64,000 nucleotides of DNA. It comes from Persephonella marina EX-H1. Lineage in GTDB: Bacteria; Aquificota; Aquificia; Aquificales; Hydrogenothermaceae. The notes below the pieces were generated by a model, which searched no databases, was not told the DNA's origin, and was given only the letters and a program-made list of their open reading frames with translations. The translations under genes and the position numbers were made by a program. The stretch's first letter is position 1; every line of letters begins with the position of its first letter. The stretch spans positions 1,442,210 to 1,506,209 of the forward strand of contig NC_012440.1 in assembly GCF_000021565.1 (NCBI RefSeq), given 5' to 3'. Shown piece after piece: positions 930-34,672 of the stretch.

Positions 930-2539
930 ATGCTTGGGATTGAGAAACTTCTTGAGAAGATACTGCACAGACAGAAGCTCCCTAAGGAAGAGAGGGAAAA
1001 GATCGATATTGATATAAAGACCAAGTATGTTCACGGTCTTCTTTTTTATAACTCTTACTTTGATCATCTATCAAAAGCCCTCTCAAAGGACACAGTATGC
1101 CTTATCGTTGGTGGGTGGATAAGGGACAGACTTCTGAACAGACCTCTATCAAAAAAGATTGATATAGACTTTCTCGTCACAACAGATCCATTTGAGATAG
1201 TAAAAAGATTTAAAAAGATACTGGGAAAAGGTGATATATTCCGTTTTGAAAAGGAAAAGGATGTTGCAACCATAATCTTTTATGAAGGTGATCACAGGTA
1301 CAGATTTGATTTCTCGTACTTTGATATATCTGACATAATGGAAAATCCCGACCTTGATTTTTACGACAAGGAAAGGGAGATAATAAAAAGGATAGAACAG
1401 GATCTTATGACAAGGGATTTTACCATAAATGCGATGGCTGTAGTCTTTGATGATACTATAGGACTCGGAGCTTCACAGACGGTACTTTTTGATCCATCAG
1501 GTGGACTTGAGGATCTTCAGGCGGGAATAGTAAGACCTGTATCCTATGAGAATATAGAGAAAGATCCTGTAAGGATACTTAGAGGTTACAGAATAGCACA
1601 GGAGATAGATTTTGAGATAGACAGTGATTTTGAGAGATGGGTAAAGAAAAATGCTTCCCTTGTAAAGAATGCACCATCTGAGAGATTGAGGGATGAGATA
1701 CTTAAGATATTTGATAAAGAAAGATCAGCTGATACAGTTGACAGACTTATAAAAGCAGGTCTTCTTCAGCAGATCATCCCAGAAATTGAAAGTATGATAA
1801 AAATAAGAAAAACAGGTGATTTCCACAAGTACGATCTTTTAAATCACTCCCTTAAAACAGTTGAGTATATGGAGCAGTTCTTAAAAAAAAAGAGATTTTA
1901 AGATCAACGATAGATAAAAGACTTCTTCAAAATCTTGGGAAAAAAGAGTTTCTGAACGATTTTACAGATATAACCCTTTTAAAACTTACAGCATTCTTCC
2001 ATGATATAGGAAAGGCTTATGTAAAAAAGAAGGACAGAAAATATATAGATCACGATATAAAGGGAGCTGAGATCTTCAAAAGAAGTATATCAGAGGAGCT
2101 TTCACTTGGGAATAAGGCAACAAACTTTGTATCAGAACTTATAAAAAATCACCTCTCAGTTTTCAGACTTTACTACCTCTACAGAAATAGGGATATCACA
2201 GACAGTGATATAAACTTTTTCTGGTACGAAAACAAAGAGAATGCTGTTCATCTTTTTATCCTTACTATATCCGATGCTTACGGAACTTCTGAGGATGATC
2301 ATTTCCTTGAAAAGATAAGGGAGTTTATCATATATCTACAGAGTTACTACTTTGATATCTACCTGAAGAGTATTGTTGAAACTCCCCTTCTATCAGGGAA
2401 AGAGATAATGGAGATACTATCTATAGAACCTTCCCCAAAGGTTGGCTATATAAAAGATAAACTCCTGAAAGCCCAGATAGAAGGGAAGATAAGAACAAAA
2501 CAGCAGGCTGTTGAGTTTATAAAGGAGTTAGCCGGATGA
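930..2539 (+). CDS. cca: CCA / poly(A)-polymerase-family tRNA nucleotidyltransferase with HD domain, split by an apparent -1 frameshift
   Basis: Class II nucleotidyltransferase that adds C, A or CCA to tRNA 3' ends. The head domain shows GGWIRDRLL (residues 61-69) and the catalytic DID at 78-80, followed by the tRNA-binding neck and body (DPVRILRGYR, APSERLRDEILKIF). Starting at ATG 930 (GGAG 6 bases upstream), the frame stops at 1901. Coding continues in the -1 frame to TGA at 2539. An HD domain spans the break: its first histidine (LLNHSLKTVEYM) is upstream, HDIGK is downstream. The two halves therefore belong to one protein of about 536 residues. The break is at nine A (1883-1891). Aquificota are known to split CC- and A-adding between two such enzymes, and I cannot say which this is. 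The local tRNA-Arg lacks encoded CCA, so the activity is needed. It could also be a pseudogene or a sequence error. Confidence 0.85.
1881..1892 (+). other. A9 slippery run at the frame break of the tRNA nucleotidyltransferase
   Basis: Codons TTA AAA AAA AAG are followed by AGA TTT TAA in frame 0. Reading one base back after AAG gives GAG ATT TTA AGA TCA and opens the rest of the HD domain. A tenth A would restore the frame in the same way. Candidates are ribosomal -1 slippage, RNA polymerase slippage, or a missing base in the sequence. Confidence 0.7.
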
Positions 2540-3601
2540 TTAAACTATAATACCACCGCCAAGGAGTATATCACCGTCATAAACGGCTAAAACCTGTCCT
2601 TTTGCGAATCTCTCCTCAGGTTTTTCAAAGTAGGCTGTCAGTCTGTTACCTTCTATACTTACATCCTTTATTTTTACAGCTTTCTGTCTGTATCTTCCCT
2701 GAACAGACAGACCTTCCTTTTTCCATTTTTCCACGGGAACAAGGAAGTTAAAATCTTCTGAGCTTACATGATCTGTTAGAAGTTTTTCCCTTTCACCAAC
2801 AACAACTGTATTTCTTTCAGCATCTTTTTCTATAACATATAAAGGCTCTCTCCATCTAACACCAAGACCTCTTCTCTGTCCTACCGTGTAAAAAGGCAGA
2901 CCTTTATGCTTTCCTACCGTTTTTCCATCAATATGTACAATATCTCCAGACTCAAATGCCAGAAGATTGTTTTCAAGAAGATACTCAGCAGGTGTTTTCC
3001 CGGCTGTAAAGCAGATCTCAAAACTCTCCTTTTTCTGTGAAACAGGTATTTTGTAATCCTCAGCTATCTTCCTTACCTCCTCCTTTGTCAGGTCTGAAAG
3101 TGGGAAGATAAGAAGATCAAGAACATCCCTTTCTAAAAGTGCCATAAAGTAAGACTGATCCTTTTTAATATCTGATCCTCTTTTTATAACCTTACCATAA
3201 ACCGGGTGATCCTCAATTTTTATGTAATGTCCTGTTGCGAACTTATCTGCACCAAGAACGATATTTACAAACTTTGCGAGCCTTCCTGTTTTTACCTCCC
3301 TGTTACATACGGAACAAGGGTTAGGGGTTTTTCCTTTCTTGTACTCCTCAACAAAGTAGTTTATAACCTTCTCTCTGAATATATCCTCCCAGTCTATGAC
3401 GTAATGCTCAATCCCAAGATATGAAGCTACCCTTTTTGCATCTTTTATGTCCTGTGGAGAACAGCATACCTGTATATCATTTGAACAGACTATACTGCTT
3501 AATTTCAGAGTAACACCTATAACATCGTATCCTTTTTCCTTAAGGAGGAGTGCTGCAACAGAGGAGTCCACTCCTCCGCTCATACCGACAGCTACTCTCA
3601 T
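2540..3601 (-). CDS. mnmA: tRNA-specific 2-thiouridylase MnmA
   Basis: Cytosolic enzyme that adenylates and thiolates U34 of tRNA-Lys, -Glu and -Gln, using sulfur passed from a cysteine desulfurase relay. The PP-loop ATP-binding motif SGGVDSS is at residues 8-14. The first catalytic cysteine is in NPCSVCNREVK (Cys96 or Cys99) and the second in FEICFTAGKTP. The C-terminal part has the usual beta-barrel segments (GLPFYTVGQRRGLGV). Length 353 residues is normal for the family. It is the last gene of the pilB-pilT-pilC-mnmA run: its ATG directly abuts the pilC stop with no spacer, so it is probably cotranscribed and translationally coupled. Its stop abuts the stop of the convergent nucleotidyltransferase gene at 2539. 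A separate MnmD-like enzyme acting on the same wobble base is encoded at 30079. Confidence 0.96.
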   Translation of the reverse strand: MRVAVGMSGGVDSSVAALLLKEKGYDVIGVTLKLSSIVCSNDIQVCCSPQDIKDAKRVASYLGIEHYVIDWEDIFREKVINYFVEEYKKGKTPNPCSVCNREVKTGRLAKFVNIVLGADKFATGHYIKIEDHPVYGKVIKRGSDIKKDQSYFMALLERDVLDLLIFPLSDLTKEEVRKIAEDYKIPVSQKKESFEICFTAGKTPAEYLLENNLLAFESGDIVHIDGKTVGKHKGLPFYTVGQRRGLGVRWREPLYVIEKDAERNTVVVGEREKLLTDHVSSEDFNFLVPVEKWKKEGLSVQGRYRQKAVKIKDVSIEGNRLTAYFEKPEERFAKGQVLAVYDGDILLGGGIIV

Positions 3602-4804
3602 TTATTTCATCAACTCCCCAAGCTTGAATATTGGCAGGTAAAGGCCTACAAGTATAACCCCAACAATTCCACCTATGAAAACCATGAGCAGAGGCTCTAT
3701 AGTTGAAAGGAGACCTTCAACAGCCCTGTCAACCTCGTCCTCAAAGAAGTCAGCTATCGTATCAAGCATCTCATCAAGTCTTCCTGTGTTCTCACCGACC
3801 CTTACCATCGCGATAAATATAGGCGGGAATAGTTTTGGATCAAGTGACTGGTATATCTGTTTACCCTTTTCAACCTCATCTTTTGTTTTGTTAATGGACT
3901 TTTCTATAACAACATTCCCTGCAACTGTTGATGCTATCTCAAGGGCTCTTATTATCGGAACACCACCGCTAACAAGTGTTGAGAGTGTCCTTGAGAATTT
4001 TGCAACAGCACCTTTTCTAAATATCTCACCTAAAAGGGGAAGATTTAGGAATACCCTATGCCAGAACTCTTTACCAGCTCTTGTTTTGTATATATACCCG
4101 TTCAGGATGAAAAGACCAAATATTCCTGCAAATATATAAAGGATGTTTGCCTTAACAAAGTTACTTGCATCAATAAGAAACTGTGTGAGAAATGGAAGCT
4201 CAGAACCCATACCCTTATAAAGCTGGGCGAATGTTGGGACAATAAAAGTGAGAATTCCAAGAACTATAACCGTTGCGATAACAACAACCATTGCAGGATA
4301 CCATGAAGCACTTATCAGCTTTCTTTTAATAGCTGCTATCTTCTCATAATATACAGTTGCCCTTTTAAGAATAACATCAAGATTACCTGACTCTTCTGCT
4401 GCTGCTGTCAGATTAACCAGAAATTCTGGAAATGCTTTGGGGTGTTTCTCCATAGCCTTTGCAAGTGACATACCCGCCATAACGTCTTCTTTTACTGATT
4501 TTAAAGCATCTGCGAGGGTTTTGTTTGGAATCTGTTCTGACAGTATCTCCAGAGCCTCCGCAATACCAACACCTGCGGATATCATCGCTCCAAGCTGTCT
4601 TGTAAATATTGCAAGATCTTTCTCTTTAACCTTTGGTTTGAATATATCTATACTGATCTCTTTTTTGGGAGCAAGTTCTATCCTTATTATCTGGTATCCC
4701 TGTTTTGTAAGCTCAGTTTCCGCAGCACCTACATCTGAGGCGTATATGGTATCCTTTTTTAGGACTCCGTATTTATCCCTTGCAGTATAAATAAACTTAG
4801 GCAT
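3602..4804 (-). CDS. pilC: Type IV pilus / type II secretion inner-membrane platform protein
   Basis: Polytopic membrane protein that couples the PilB and PilT ATPases to pilin assembly and removal. It has the typical GspF/PilC layout: a cytoplasmic N-terminus opening MPKFIYTARDKYGVLKK, two homologous GspF domains (about residues 65-190 and 270-390) and three hydrophobic segments (about 165-190, 220-240, 370-390). The first domain contains the segments LAIFTRQLGAMISAGVGI and LTAAAEESGNLD, and the second repeats this pattern in FSRTLSTLVSGGVPIIRAL and VGENTGRLDEML. Length 400 residues is standard. It follows pilT with a 13-base gap on the minus strand. No pilin gene is in the window. A type II secretion role cannot be excluded, but the adjacent PilT favours a pilus. 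Confidence 0.93.
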   Translation of the reverse strand: MPKFIYTARDKYGVLKKDTIYASDVGAAETELTKQGYQIIRIELAPKKEISIDIFKPKVKEKDLAIFTRQLGAMISAGVGIAEALEILSEQIPNKTLADALKSVKEDVMAGMSLAKAMEKHPKAFPEFLVNLTAAAEESGNLDVILKRATVYYEKIAAIKRKLISASWYPAMVVVIATVIVLGILTFIVPTFAQLYKGMGSELPFLTQFLIDASNFVKANILYIFAGIFGLFILNGYIYKTRAGKEFWHRVFLNLPLLGEIFRKGAVAKFSRTLSTLVSGGVPIIRALEIASTVAGNVVIEKSINKTKDEVEKGKQIYQSLDPKLFPPIFIAMVRVGENTGRLDEMLDTIADFFEDEVDRAVEGLLSTIEPLLMVFIGGIVGVILVGLYLPIFKLGELMK

Positions 4805-31126: not shown

Positions 31127-33300
31127 CTAAAGCATTTTTTCTACAGTTCTGAAAGGGAAATAGCTTTCCTCAAGTATTTTTATGTATTTCTCAATATCAA
31201 GAGGTTTCGGATATCTCATGTATATCTCAAGTGGGACGCCTTTTATGTAACTGTCCTTAACATAGATAATATTTATCTTTTCACCTGGATTTACCTTTAT
31301 CCCCTCTTTTAGAAGTGTTCCTGCGGTCTCTGATATATCCGTTCTTTTCTGGTATGTGGTGGGATCCTTTGATACCCTTTTCCTTACTGCAAGCTGGAAT
31401 ATACTGAAATCACCTTTCTTTAATCTATCCCTGTATTTTTTCAGTATATCCTCTGTATCCCTAAGCTTCTCGAAGAACTGTTTTCTGTTTTCAGCTTCCT
31501 TTAACTTTTCAAGTATCTCACTCTGGAATATCTTAACAAACTGCGGTGAGTCGGATCTTCTTATTTCTATACCTCTAACCTTTAACTCTCCGTTCCTGAA
31601 CTTTCCATAAAACCTGTTAGGTACGCCTATACCATCTTCCTTTGATGGGAGAAATACAATCCAGTCAAATATACCCTCAAGATTTATCCTGAAATCTATA
31701 AGATTTTTATTTATCCCTTTAAATCTCCTTTTCAGCTTTTCGTTTAAGACAGTCTCAAGCTCTCTGTAATCTTTTTCCGTTGCATCTTTTCTGTAAATCC
31801 ATACAGAATCTGTTAATGCATGTAAAAGTCTGAAACCTCTGCTCTCTGCTATCTCCTTTACAAAGAGTAAAAGCTGTCTTCCTATAGCTGTTGTTGTTTC
31901 GTGGGACTCTATCCTTCCGAAAACAGCATTTTTGTATCCAAGGTATCCAAAGCTTACAACAAGAAGCCATTTTAAACCTTTCTGTCTCCTGTCAAATATC
32001 TCTCTTCTGTCCTGTGATCTTTTCATAAGCTCTTTGTAATGAGTCCTCCTGTTTAAAAGAAATCTGAGGGCTTTTGGGACTATACCTTCCCTCTTTGTGC
32101 ATACCCTGTAACCTGTAGGTAGTTTTGCTGTACATTCTCTGTGAGAGCAGTTTATAGTTTCGTATGAGAGATTGTAGTTTGCTATTATTGAGGGATACAT
32201 TGAGAAAAAATCAAGCTCGGCAACATTTTCAAAAACACCTGTTATCGGTCTGAAGGAAAGACCACCCCTATCAACATCTATAAGCTGGTCTGCTGTTTTT
32301 GGGTCTTCCGGGAGATTTTTTCTGAAAGGGATAAGGTATCCTTCTTCAAAAGCCATTCTGATCTCAATGGATGTTATAGGTGTTCCTATCGTTGTTCTTG
32401 ACAGCTGCTGTAAGGGGATTGAAGATATCCTTCCAAGCTCAATAATACCGTCAAGGCCTATCTCCCTGTAAAAAAATGAGTTTTTTGGGTCTATATGTAT
32501 CCTTCCAAGTAGGTATGTTGAGTCTGCTGTGTAAACTGTCTGTCCGTAAGAGATGAAACTTCTTCCCTTTTTTGTGAAAGGCTGTGTTTTTATCCTGTTC
32601 AGGTTCTGGACGCCTGCTTTTATAAGATTTGGGATTACTATCTCATCCCCGTATTCAACAATCAGGATATCAGGGTCTTTTTTTTTAAAAGCTGTGAGAG
32701 ATACTCTAAATTGCCATCATCTAAAACTATACCTGATTCCCCTTCCATCTCAATGTATAGAGGAGGCAAATGTCTCATAAACTTTGGATTTCCACCTTCT
32801 ATATCCGGCTTTATTCTCATTATCCTCAGATCAAAAATCCTGTAATCTGTTCTCTCCGCACTGTCTATCTTTCTGAACATAACTTTTCCATTCCTCTCAA
32901 CAGGTTCTACAGTGCAGAATGGAAATATCTTTTTTTCATACATAAATATCTGAGCAGGTGTGAGCTGTATGTTGTATATATCAGTATCTTCAATAACTCT
33001 GTTTTTCCTCAAAAGATGTACAGCTTTAAGGTATGTAAAAGGTGTGTTTGTTGTTAGCTTATAAACCTGGAGTTCACCTTTTAGAAGATCTTTTTTTAAT
33101 ACTTTCTCAATCTTTATCTTCTTCCCAAATCTTTTGATCAGAAGCTTTAAAGCATCTTTACTGTTTTTCTCACCGATATAGAAGTAAGGTCTGAACCTTC
33201 TGAAAACGGAAAATCTCTTCCCATCTTCAGATAAAAGCCATATATGTATCCCGAAGGAGTCAGAGTATATATCAAGGATCTGAAGCTTTCTTTTTACCAT
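31127..33300 (-). CDS. Family-B DNA polymerase of the PolB2 type, degenerate exonuclease, split by an apparent -1 frameshift at A9
   Basis: Starts at ATG 33300. Frame 0 stops after 212 codons, and the coding sequence continues in the -1 frame to 31127, about 724 residues in all. Polymerase motif A is DFFSMYPSII. Motif B is KWLLVVSFGYLGYKNAVFG, with the usual Asn-Ser and Tyr replaced. Motif C is HALTDSVW, where the first Asp of DTD is Leu but the second, metal-binding Asp remains. The exonuclease region is eroded: ExoI is YIEMEGE and ExoII is ILIVEYGDEIVIP, without the FD. GRIHIDP and RFYGKFRNGELKVRGIEIRR are characteristic of the archaeal PolB2/Dpo2 branch. It is the last gene of a lexA-led operon and overlaps the upstream gene by 29 bases. 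I infer damage-tolerant, non-proofreading synthesis. It could be a decaying gene. Confidence 0.8.
32677..32690 (-). other. A9 slippery run at the frame break of the PolB gene
   Basis: On the minus strand the codons CTT TTA AAA AAA AAG ACC CTG ATA TCC TGA end frame 0. One base back, GAC CCT GAT ATC CTG restores the PolB sequence DPDILIVEYG. Nine A occupy 32678-32686, in the same TTA-AAA-AAA-AAG-A context as at 1881-1892. Confidence 0.7.
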
Positions 33301-33529
33301 TTTTCAGTTCCTGTATCTCTTTTTCCATCTCTATAAGTATTGAAAATATTATGCTCTCTACAGGATTTATACTTCCTGAACTCCCTACAGCCTGAGAGTG
33401 GAATTTTGCGTATGAGAAAAGTCTGTCAAATATCTTTTTGTCTTCCTTCCTGAGAGCTTTTCTAAAAAGTGAAAGCTCATTTTTACTGAGCTTTATTATC
33501 TGTGTTCCAGAAGGGATAGTTTTCCCCAT
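33272..33529 (-). CDS. Small protein of the lexA-polB cassette, 85 residues, unknown function
   Basis: Mostly helical, basic protein opening MGKTIPSGTQIIKLSKNELS. The centre reads FDRLFSYAKFHSQAVGSSGS, then a helix (VESIIFSILIEMEKEIQEL) and a lysine-rich end. No enzyme motif, cysteine or membrane segment is visible. It starts eight bases after the RecA-like gene and overlaps the polymerase start by 29 bases, so its translation is probably linked to both. I suggest an adaptor or DNA-binding subunit of the polymerase complex, purely from context. Confidence 0.7.
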   Translation of the reverse strand: MGKTIPSGTQIIKLSKNELSLFRKALRKEDKKIFDRLFSYAKFHSQAVGSSGSINPVESIIFSILIEMEKEIQELKNGKKKASDP

Positions 33530-33537
33530 TTCTTACC

Positions 33538-33999
33538 TCAGCTGTTAACGGTTATATTTGTGAACATAAAGCTCTCACCAACGATAAAAACAGGAAGATT
33601 TATACCTTTTATCTTTTCAACTACAGAGGAAAGGGACAGTCTTTTTTCGTCCTCAGATATGCTCTGGTCTTTCAGAACCTCATCTATGTCGGAGATGATT
33701 ATAACATCGGGAGCTGTTTTCAGGCTTTTGTCTATAGCTGTTTTAAGCTGGAAAACGGTAAAAACTCTTACTATCTTTATAAGGTTTAAAAGTTTCTTTG
33801 GATCTAAGTTCTCAAATTTTGCCACATTCGTTATAAGAAATGGGTTAAACCTGTTCCCACAATCTATAAGAGACACATTTTTTGAGCTTTTTGTGAATTT
33901 GTAAAGCATGTAGTGGTAGTGATACTTTCCGTTTGATATCTCTATCTTTTCCCACTGTTTTTCAAGCATACCGATAGGAGAGATCCCATTATAAACCAT
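33538..33999 (-). CDS. RecA/RadA-like ATPase relic without Walker A (ImuA-like position)
   Basis: 153 residues with the strand pattern of a RecA core. NVSLIDCGNRFNPFLITNVA resembles the RadA/Rad51 segment 'YIDTEG-F-P-RI', and a hydrophobic Walker-B-like strand PDVIIISDIDEVL follows. The Walker A loop expected before it is missing (YHYHYMLYKFTKSSKN lies there), so ATP hydrolysis is unlikely. It may resemble SulA/ImuA proteins, which are also RecA-like and may lack ATPase residues. The ATG lies two bases after the lexA stop. Its place between lexA and a specialised polymerase suggests a link between RecA filaments and the polymerase. The RecA-like call is by eye and moderate. Confidence 0.6.
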   Translation of the reverse strand: MVYNGISPIGMLEKQWEKIEISNGKYHYHYMLYKFTKSSKNVSLIDCGNRFNPFLITNVAKFENLDPKKLLNLIKIVRVFTVFQLKTAIDKSLKTAPDVIIISDIDEVLKDQSISEDEKRLSLSSVVEKIKGINLPVFIVGESFMFTNITVNS

Positions 34000-34001
34000 A
34001 A

Positions 34002-34622
34002 CTAAAACCTCCTTTTAAGTCCTCTGTAGGATCTTATTATTCCTTTAACCACACCCTGAACCTGAATCCTGTCAGCTTCGTAATACATAGGCTCAAGCTC
34101 CTCATTTGCAGGAACAAGCTTTACCATCCCGTTATCCAGTAGATAAAACTTCTTCAGTGTTGCCTCTTCTCCATCAATGAGAACAACAGCAACCTCCCCG
34201 TTTAAAACGTCTTTTCTGTTTTCAACGATAATAATATCCCCGTCCATAATATGCTCATCTATCATAGAGTTTCCCTTTACTTTCAGGGCGTAACAGTTAT
34301 CACACTGGATAAGGTCTGTCAGATCAACATACTCAAATATGTCCTGTTCTATCTCTATAGGTCTTCCTGCTGCGATATGACCGTAAAATGGGAATTTTAA
34401 AGGCTCTTCCTCAAAAAGCTTTTCTCTATTAATCCTGATCTTACCTCTACCTGTTCTTATCAGGTAGCCTTCTTTTACGAGTTTTTCTATATGCTCATGG
34501 ATTGTTGAGACTGCAGAAAGACCAAAATAGTCTGCTATCTCCTTGAGTGTTGGACTGTATCCGTACTGGGAATAAAACTGGCCTATAAACTGTAGTATCT
34601 CTTTCTGTCTTTTTGTTAACAA
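34002..34622 (-). CDS. lexA: SOS repressor LexA
   Basis: Represses DNA-damage genes until RecA filaments trigger its self-cleavage. The N-terminal winged helix reads MLTKRQKEILQFIGQFYSQY, then SPTLKEIADYFGLSAVSTIHEHIEKL. The cleavage site Ala85-Gly86 (HIAAGRPIE), nucleophile Ser119 (KGNSMIDEHI) and general base Lys157 (ATLKKF) are all present, so it should be functional. Length 206 residues is normal. The start is TTG with AGGAGG eight bases upstream. It leads the minus-strand cassette with the RecA-like, small and PolB genes, spaced by 2 and 8 bases and an overlap. Aquifex itself is usually described as lacking LexA, so its presence here is notable. Confidence 0.96.
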   Translation of the reverse strand: MLTKRQKEILQFIGQFYSQYGYSPTLKEIADYFGLSAVSTIHEHIEKLVKEGYLIRTGRGKIRINREKLFEEEPLKFPFYGHIAAGRPIEIEQDIFEYVDLTDLIQCDNCYALKVKGNSMIDEHIMDGDIIIVENRKDVLNGEVAVVLIDGEEATLKKFYLLDNGMVKLVPANEELEPMYYEADRIQVQGVVKGIIRSYRGLKRRF

Positions 34623-34643
34623 TATCCTAACCTCCTGTTTTTT

Positions 34644-34672
34644 AATATAACCGAAAAAAAACCGAAAATCAA
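34644..34672 (-). promoter_or_regulatory. lexA promoter with direct-repeat operator candidate
   Basis: On the minus strand, -35 TTGATT (34667-34672) and -10 TATATT (34644-34649) are 17 bases apart. The spacer consists of TTCGGT, five T, TTCGGT: a direct repeat with 11-bp period, one helical turn. This geometry equals the GTTC-N7-GTTC operators of alphaproteobacterial LexA, though the half-site differs. Position and form suggest LexA autoregulation of the whole cassette. The start point would be near 34637, leaving a very short leader. Confidence 0.6.

Follow-up and report, generated by a model that had tools for sequence, protein, structure and literature searches.

A 64,000-nucleotide stretch of the Persephonella marina EX-H1 genome (contig NC_012440.1, positions 1,442,210 to 1,506,209; hereafter the window) carries a cassette of four genes encoding the repressor LexA, an inactive RadA (iRadA), the small protein PPB2 and the family-B DNA polymerase PolB2. 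The reading favoured here, to which a probability of roughly 77% may be attached, is that the four genes form a PolB2 mutasome operon, self-contained and under LexA regulation, and constitute a private one-operon SOS response, in which full-length PolB2 would be obtained by recoding at a run of nine A residues (A9). LexA, the product of the first gene, would bind a direct-repeat operator in its own promoter and so silence the operon; upon DNA damage RecA filaments would bring about the self-cleavage of LexA, and one mRNA would then give rise to iRadA, PPB2 and PolB2, which may form a translesion polymerase without proofreading, as has been published for the family. Full-length PolB2 would need either an additional A in some messages at the A9 run, through transcriptional slippage, or a -1 shift of the ribosome; failing such recoding, a 212-aa N-terminal stub would be made. 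In what follows G000 denotes the genome under study (two contigs, 1.98 Mb), other G-numbers denote other genomes and L-numbers denote loci.

Identity of the cassette

The four genes lie on the minus strand, with 2 and 8 bases between neighbours at the first two junctions and an overlap of 29 bases at the last. An initial annotation of the window had given this arrangement correctly, and the lexA gene at its head, the RecA/RadA-like protein without a Walker A motif and the 85-residue protein that it described are all confirmed (Table 1). LexA possesses an AAGR cleavage site (A85-G86) and the Ser119/Lys dyad. The AF2 model of iRadA has a pLDDT of 93 and its top matches in a Foldseek search of the PDB are RadA/Rad51 ATPase domains (E 6e-6). 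The MGKT N-terminal arm that identifies PPB2, a family of small helical proteins, is kept in relatives. PolB2 is best matched by the NCBIfam model PRK05761.1-2 (6e-112, yet below the cut-off of the model); the aspartate of motif A, ELDFFSMYPSII, is kept, motif C reads LTDS, i.e. xxD in place of DxD as in PolB2s, the D(K/R) motif is present, and in a tree the polymerase part clusters with bacterial PolB2. The annotated PolB2-type polymerase is thus upheld as to type, but it is not the single open reading frame that had been supposed, and both the frame break and the regulation of a single operon had been missed.

The operon is a member of a known bacterial family, the PolB2 mutasome (iRadA-PPB2-PolB2, often lexA-led). 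A lexA-iRadA-arCOG07300(PPB2)-PolB2 operon was described in Leptospirillum (Makarova 2014, PMC4104785), and a later paper (Timinskas 2025, PMC11791011) interprets bacterial iRadA-PPB2-PolB2 operons, in which lexA often comes first, as encoding a 'PolB2 mutasome' for translesion synthesis, gives the MG(K/R)T N-terminus as the signature arm of the PPB2 family and models a heteropentameric PolB2 complex for relatives. The operon has been known since 2014 and the mutasome model since 2025, and the novelty once claimed for the system as such is lost. The LFML04_0990-0993 genes of Leptospirillum ferriphilum (PMC4104785, PMC11791011) are the same four in the same order, with lexA in front, and share with the Persephonella cassette an inactive RadA fold, the MG(K/R)T of PPB2 and a PolB2 with a degenerate DxD and a D(K/R) motif. 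The cassette differs from the operon described there in that polB2 is cut by a conserved A9, that there is a single direct-repeat operator and that lexA scoring above cut-off occurs nowhere else in the phylum. A search of open-access full text found no report of either a single-operon LexA circuit or A9 recoding in Aquificota, and, relative to the literature consulted, it is these two features that appear to be new.

A homologous polymerase group, with partner genes common to both, is represented in archaea by Dpo2/PolB2 of Sulfolobus, which is reported to be induced by damage and to be required for targeted mutagenesis (PMC7390963, PMC8764526, according to PMC11791011). The genes that neighbour or regulate archaeal PolB2 are, in that account, of the orc1/cdc6 type (PMC11791011), whereas here the regulator is a bacterial LexA. 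The likeness to LexA-ImuA-ImuB-DnaE2 and to UmuDC/Pol V, in which a LexA-governed mutagenesis operon also combines a RecA-like partner with an error-prone polymerase, would be one of analogy. The cassette belongs to neither group, in agreement with the initial annotation: its polymerase is of the B family, there is no UmuD, no match to a Y-family polymerase was found in the G000 genome and iRadA is of the RadA/Rad51 type. The RadA fold of the supposed RecA-like relic is real, but its equivalence to ImuA is by analogy only. What remains of the proposed SOS mutagenesis system, its novelty apart, is a putative LexA-controlled B-family translesion module, to which the operator, the RadA fold and the lack of a Y-family polymerase all point.

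Distribution of the cassette

The order iRadA-PPB2-PolB2 is kept in most of 80 loci from GTDB, and lexA stands directly upstream of the cassette in Persephonella, Aquificaceae, Muiribacterium and WOR-3. Of 136 Aquificota genomes, 8 contain LexA above cut-off, and every one of these is among the 10 that carry PolB2; the remaining two PolB2 matches are C-terminal fragments in incomplete genomes. Within Aquificota this co-occurrence is significant by Fisher's test (p 2e-11, uncorrected for shared descent), and the module and its regulator would appear to be gained or lost together. The four Persephonella-type PolB2 proteins form one clade in a quick PolB2 tree (support 96). None of the genes flanking the cassette in the window is found near it in relatives, and the module is therefore one without a fixed genomic place. 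The neighbouring dnaN gene, whose beta clamp had been put forward as a partner, is for the same reason regarded as a chance neighbour. A viral origin was also considered, and a scan of viral contigs with the polymerase part yielded no relative.

Probable control by LexA

Between the -35 and -10 elements of the lexA promoter lies the sequence TTCGGTT-N4-TTCGGTT, a direct repeat with a period of 11 bp, which is probably the LexA operator. The block is found just 5' of lexA in G000, G022, G083, G086, G089, G101, G102 and Candidatus Muiribacterium. Only one site was found in G000 even when one mismatch was allowed, and matches with two mismatches were no commoner than those to a reversed control. 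Seven other Aquificota with PolB2 were searched at up to one mismatch, and in six of them there was likewise a single copy; G099 has a second, one-mismatch match elsewhere, and the PolB2-less G080, G082 and G097 have none. There is no operator site at recA. A self-cleavable LexA with an operator in its own promoter suggests a LexA-controlled (SOS) operon and, since there is one operator per genome and none at recA, LexA appears to control the cassette operon only. The operator search was restricted to the motif found 5' of lexA, and this Aquificota-type motif was not seen 5' of lexA in WOR-3. In the WOR-3 cassette L130 (2980-3160) a different, palindrome-like sequence, CTATACATTTGTATAG, lies upstream and is perhaps an operator of its own.

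The frame break in polB2

The first 212 codons of polB2 run into a stop, and the conserved polymerase part is encoded in the -1 frame, the switch in G000 occurring at CTTTTAAAAAAAAAGACCC, which contains the A9 run. The same -1 break is present in the Persephonella-type genomes G086 and G089, with TTTATAAAAAAAAAGA. The polB2 of G083 has A10 at this place, the sole A10 run listed for that genome, and is in frame; in more distant Aquificota polB2 has no such run and is in frame, save for a different break in G101. No truly split PolB2 was found outside Persephonella in the 80 GTDB loci; what looks like a break in L177, a PolB2 from Omnitrophota, coincides with a run of N that marks an assembly gap.

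Purifying selection acts on the polB2 sequence beyond the break: the ratio of nonsynonymous to synonymous substitution rates (dN/dS) between G086 and G089, both of which are broken, is 0.15 before A9 and 0.12 after it (405 codons), and the corresponding values for G000 against G086 are 0.27 and 0.19. Independent translation of the polymerase half is unlikely, as the first ATG, GTG or TTG in frame is situated about 100 codons past the break. In having a conserved A9 run with both frames under selection, polB2 resembles programmed-slippage genes of the dnaX/mxiE type. In many genomes selection against slippage appears at a length of nine (Baranov 2005, PMC1088944), and dnaX of Thermus thermophilus undergoes transcriptional slippage at A9 (PMC1088944). 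In dnaX and in Shigella mxiE (PMC1088944) nine A (or T) residues likewise switch frame in a coding region and, as in mxiE, the long product of polB2 would need an inserted base; here, however, the broken genes are that for a translesion polymerase and, within a single bacterial family, several others with no relation to it.

A9 breaks in other genes of the family

Genome-wide tests for A9 breaks took in the stretches around A9 sites of three genomes. In G000 there are 21 A9 runs but A10 runs are absent, A10 being rare in every relative checked. At five of the 21 a gene is broken, each time in the -1 sense, and the genes concerned are polB2 and those for a nucleotidyltransferase, a CopA-type ATPase, YlxR and an usher-like protein. 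Among coding A8 runs 0 of 31 have a -1 break, as against 9 of 24 coding A9 runs (p 0.0002), classes of break being defined here by thresholds of open-frame length, under which certain overlaps between genes may pass for breaks at the shorter runs. All three codon phases of the run are represented among the A9 breaks.

Two of these genes can be followed through the family. The tRNA nucleotidyltransferase gene is out of frame with A9 in 18 cases, in frame with A10 in three and in frame without a run in another three. The YlxR/DUF448-L7Ae-like gene (L027, G000:C2:208560; L084-L110) is split at TGTAAAAAAAAA in 25 family genomes; one A10 ortholog is in frame, and that of G077, also with A10, needs the opposite correction. 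A10 was seen at the A9-break sites of polB2, YlxR or the nucleotidyltransferase in G083, G088, G087, G071 and G066. In the CopA-type P-type ATPase gene (L028, G000:C2:309565) the A9 split falls right after the heavy-metal-binding domain, resembling the E. coli copA frameshift that yields a chaperone. The usher-like outer membrane protein gene (L030, G000:C2:395772) is split at A9 after some 50 codons.

Table 1. Features of the cassette and its surroundings, in coordinates of the window
Feature	Position	Strand	Remarks
-35 element of lexA operon promoter	34667..34672	-	TTGATT; 17-bp spacer to -10; block conserved in relatives
Probable LexA operator	34649..34666	-	TTCGGTTTTTTTTCGGTT, direct repeat; sole exact copy in genome
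-10 element	34644..34649	-	TATATT; from sequence
lexA Shine-Dalgarno	34631..34636	-	AGGAGG; from sequence
lexA	34002..34622	-	206 aa, TTG start; TIGR00498 4.8e-46, above curated cut-off; self-cleaving repressor
iRadA (inactive RadA)	33538..33999	-	153 aa; fold of RadA/Rad51, Walker A absent
PPB2	33272..33529	-	85 aa, arCOG07300-like; MGKT N-terminus (alignment with relatives)
polB2, joined coding sequence	31127..33300	-	Two frames switching at A9 run
polB2 N-terminal frame	32662..33300	-	212 codons, then stop if no recoding; weak match to PolB2 model N-terminus
A9 run, -1 frame switch (putative recoding site)	32678..32686	- (T9 on +)	Same break in G086, G089; G083 A10
polB2 polymerase frame	31127..32716 (open)	-	PF00136 1.8e-36; motif A, LTDS motif C, D(K/R) motif; dN/dS 0.12
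Peptide-level sequence spanning polB2 frame switch		-	LLKKKDPDILIVEYG; predicted
Poly(A)-polymerase/CCA-type tRNA nucleotidyltransferase	924-2536; A9 at 1883-1891		-1 split at A9

Alternative explanations

It might be supposed that polB2 is a decaying pseudogene, in which a deletion in the A9 run killed the polymerase so that LexA, iRadA and PPB2 are the only products. The in-frame product does end after 212 codons, no start codon lies close to the break in the remainder and the module has suffered other damage in G101 and G099, but this explanation is very improbable given that the same break recurs in two further species, that dN/dS remains low beyond it, that the catalytic and partner-binding motifs of PolB2 are intact and that conserved YlxR and tRNA nucleotidyltransferase genes have similar A9 breaks across the family. 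No more credible is an error of sequencing or assembly by which A9 was called where the DNA has A10. It would explain why all five G000 breaks have the same sense in a genome without any A10 run, but not why independently assembled G086 and G089 have the same A9 break in polB2, nor why YlxR and the nucleotidyltransferase have A9 in dozens of separate assemblies, a few of which show A10 at the same sites; assemblies can thus show A10 where it is present, and it is rare in all relatives checked. Because the break is common to relatives, the sequence past it is under purifying selection and other genes are broken at A9 family-wide, the data argue for recoding, probably by transcriptional slippage. 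A more serious contender, though still unlikely, is that full-length PolB2 arises through -1 programmed ribosomal frameshifting on A_AAA_AAG. This heptamer is in phase at the polB2 and nucleotidyltransferase sites and nearly all breaks require a -1 shift, but neither a Shine-Dalgarno-like stimulator nor a significant hairpin was found at the polB2 A9 (z -1.4 to -1.7; others about 0). Transcriptional slippage is clearly preferred over ribosomal frameshifting since, in addition, the breaks are spread over the three codon phases and are confined to a run length of nine, and the A10 of YlxR in G077 needs the opposite correction, which a -1 shift cannot give.

On the side of regulation, LexA in most bacteria governs recA, uvr genes and others, and it may be asked whether the Persephonella LexA heads an ordinary multi-gene SOS regulon, with polB2 beside lexA by chance. 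The restriction of the operator search to the lexA-upstream motif leaves some room for this, but it is improbable in view of the single site at up to one mismatch in G000, two-mismatch matches at the level of the reversed control, the absence of a site at recA and the failure to find LexA above cut-off in PolB2-less Aquificota. A private, one-operon circuit is accordingly retained, although several points weigh against it and against recoding. Operator binding and the single-operon regulon are deduced from sequence, and weaker sites would escape; damage induction and slippage are likewise predictions; and shared descent may contribute to the co-occurrence of LexA and PolB2. That nearly all breaks are of the -1 sense would also be expected from -1 frameshifting, from contraction of A10 or from a systematic undercalling of A10 as A9. 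Furthermore, the module is decaying in places, as in G099 a TnpB-like insertion (L020, about 2711-4524) between the operator and lexA has deprived lexA of its adjacent promoter, and in G101 (L012) the frame of the N-terminal part of PolB2 has a further break, distinct from that at A9 (A8 as against A7 in the sister genome G099).

Implications

A tentative extension, rather less likely to be right than wrong, is that A9 serves as a second selected brake, slippage rationing the error-prone polymerase obtained from each induced message so that LexA control and stochastic recoding are combined in one operon, and that A9 slippage is a standing step of expression in Hydrogenothermaceae, affecting YlxR, the tRNA nucleotidyltransferase and the CopA-type ATPase as well as PolB2. 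If the favoured reading is true, SOS can be one portable operon, a minimal LexA circuit travelling with its own mutator polymerase, and such a circuit exists in a phylum otherwise without LexA above cut-off among the 136 Aquificota genomes, so that the start or the shrinkage of SOS regulons would become testable. With the A9 break, the making of a mutagenic polymerase would include a step of recoding, and the family-wide occurrence of such breaks would mean that standard annotation labels working genes in these genomes as fragments or pseudogenes.

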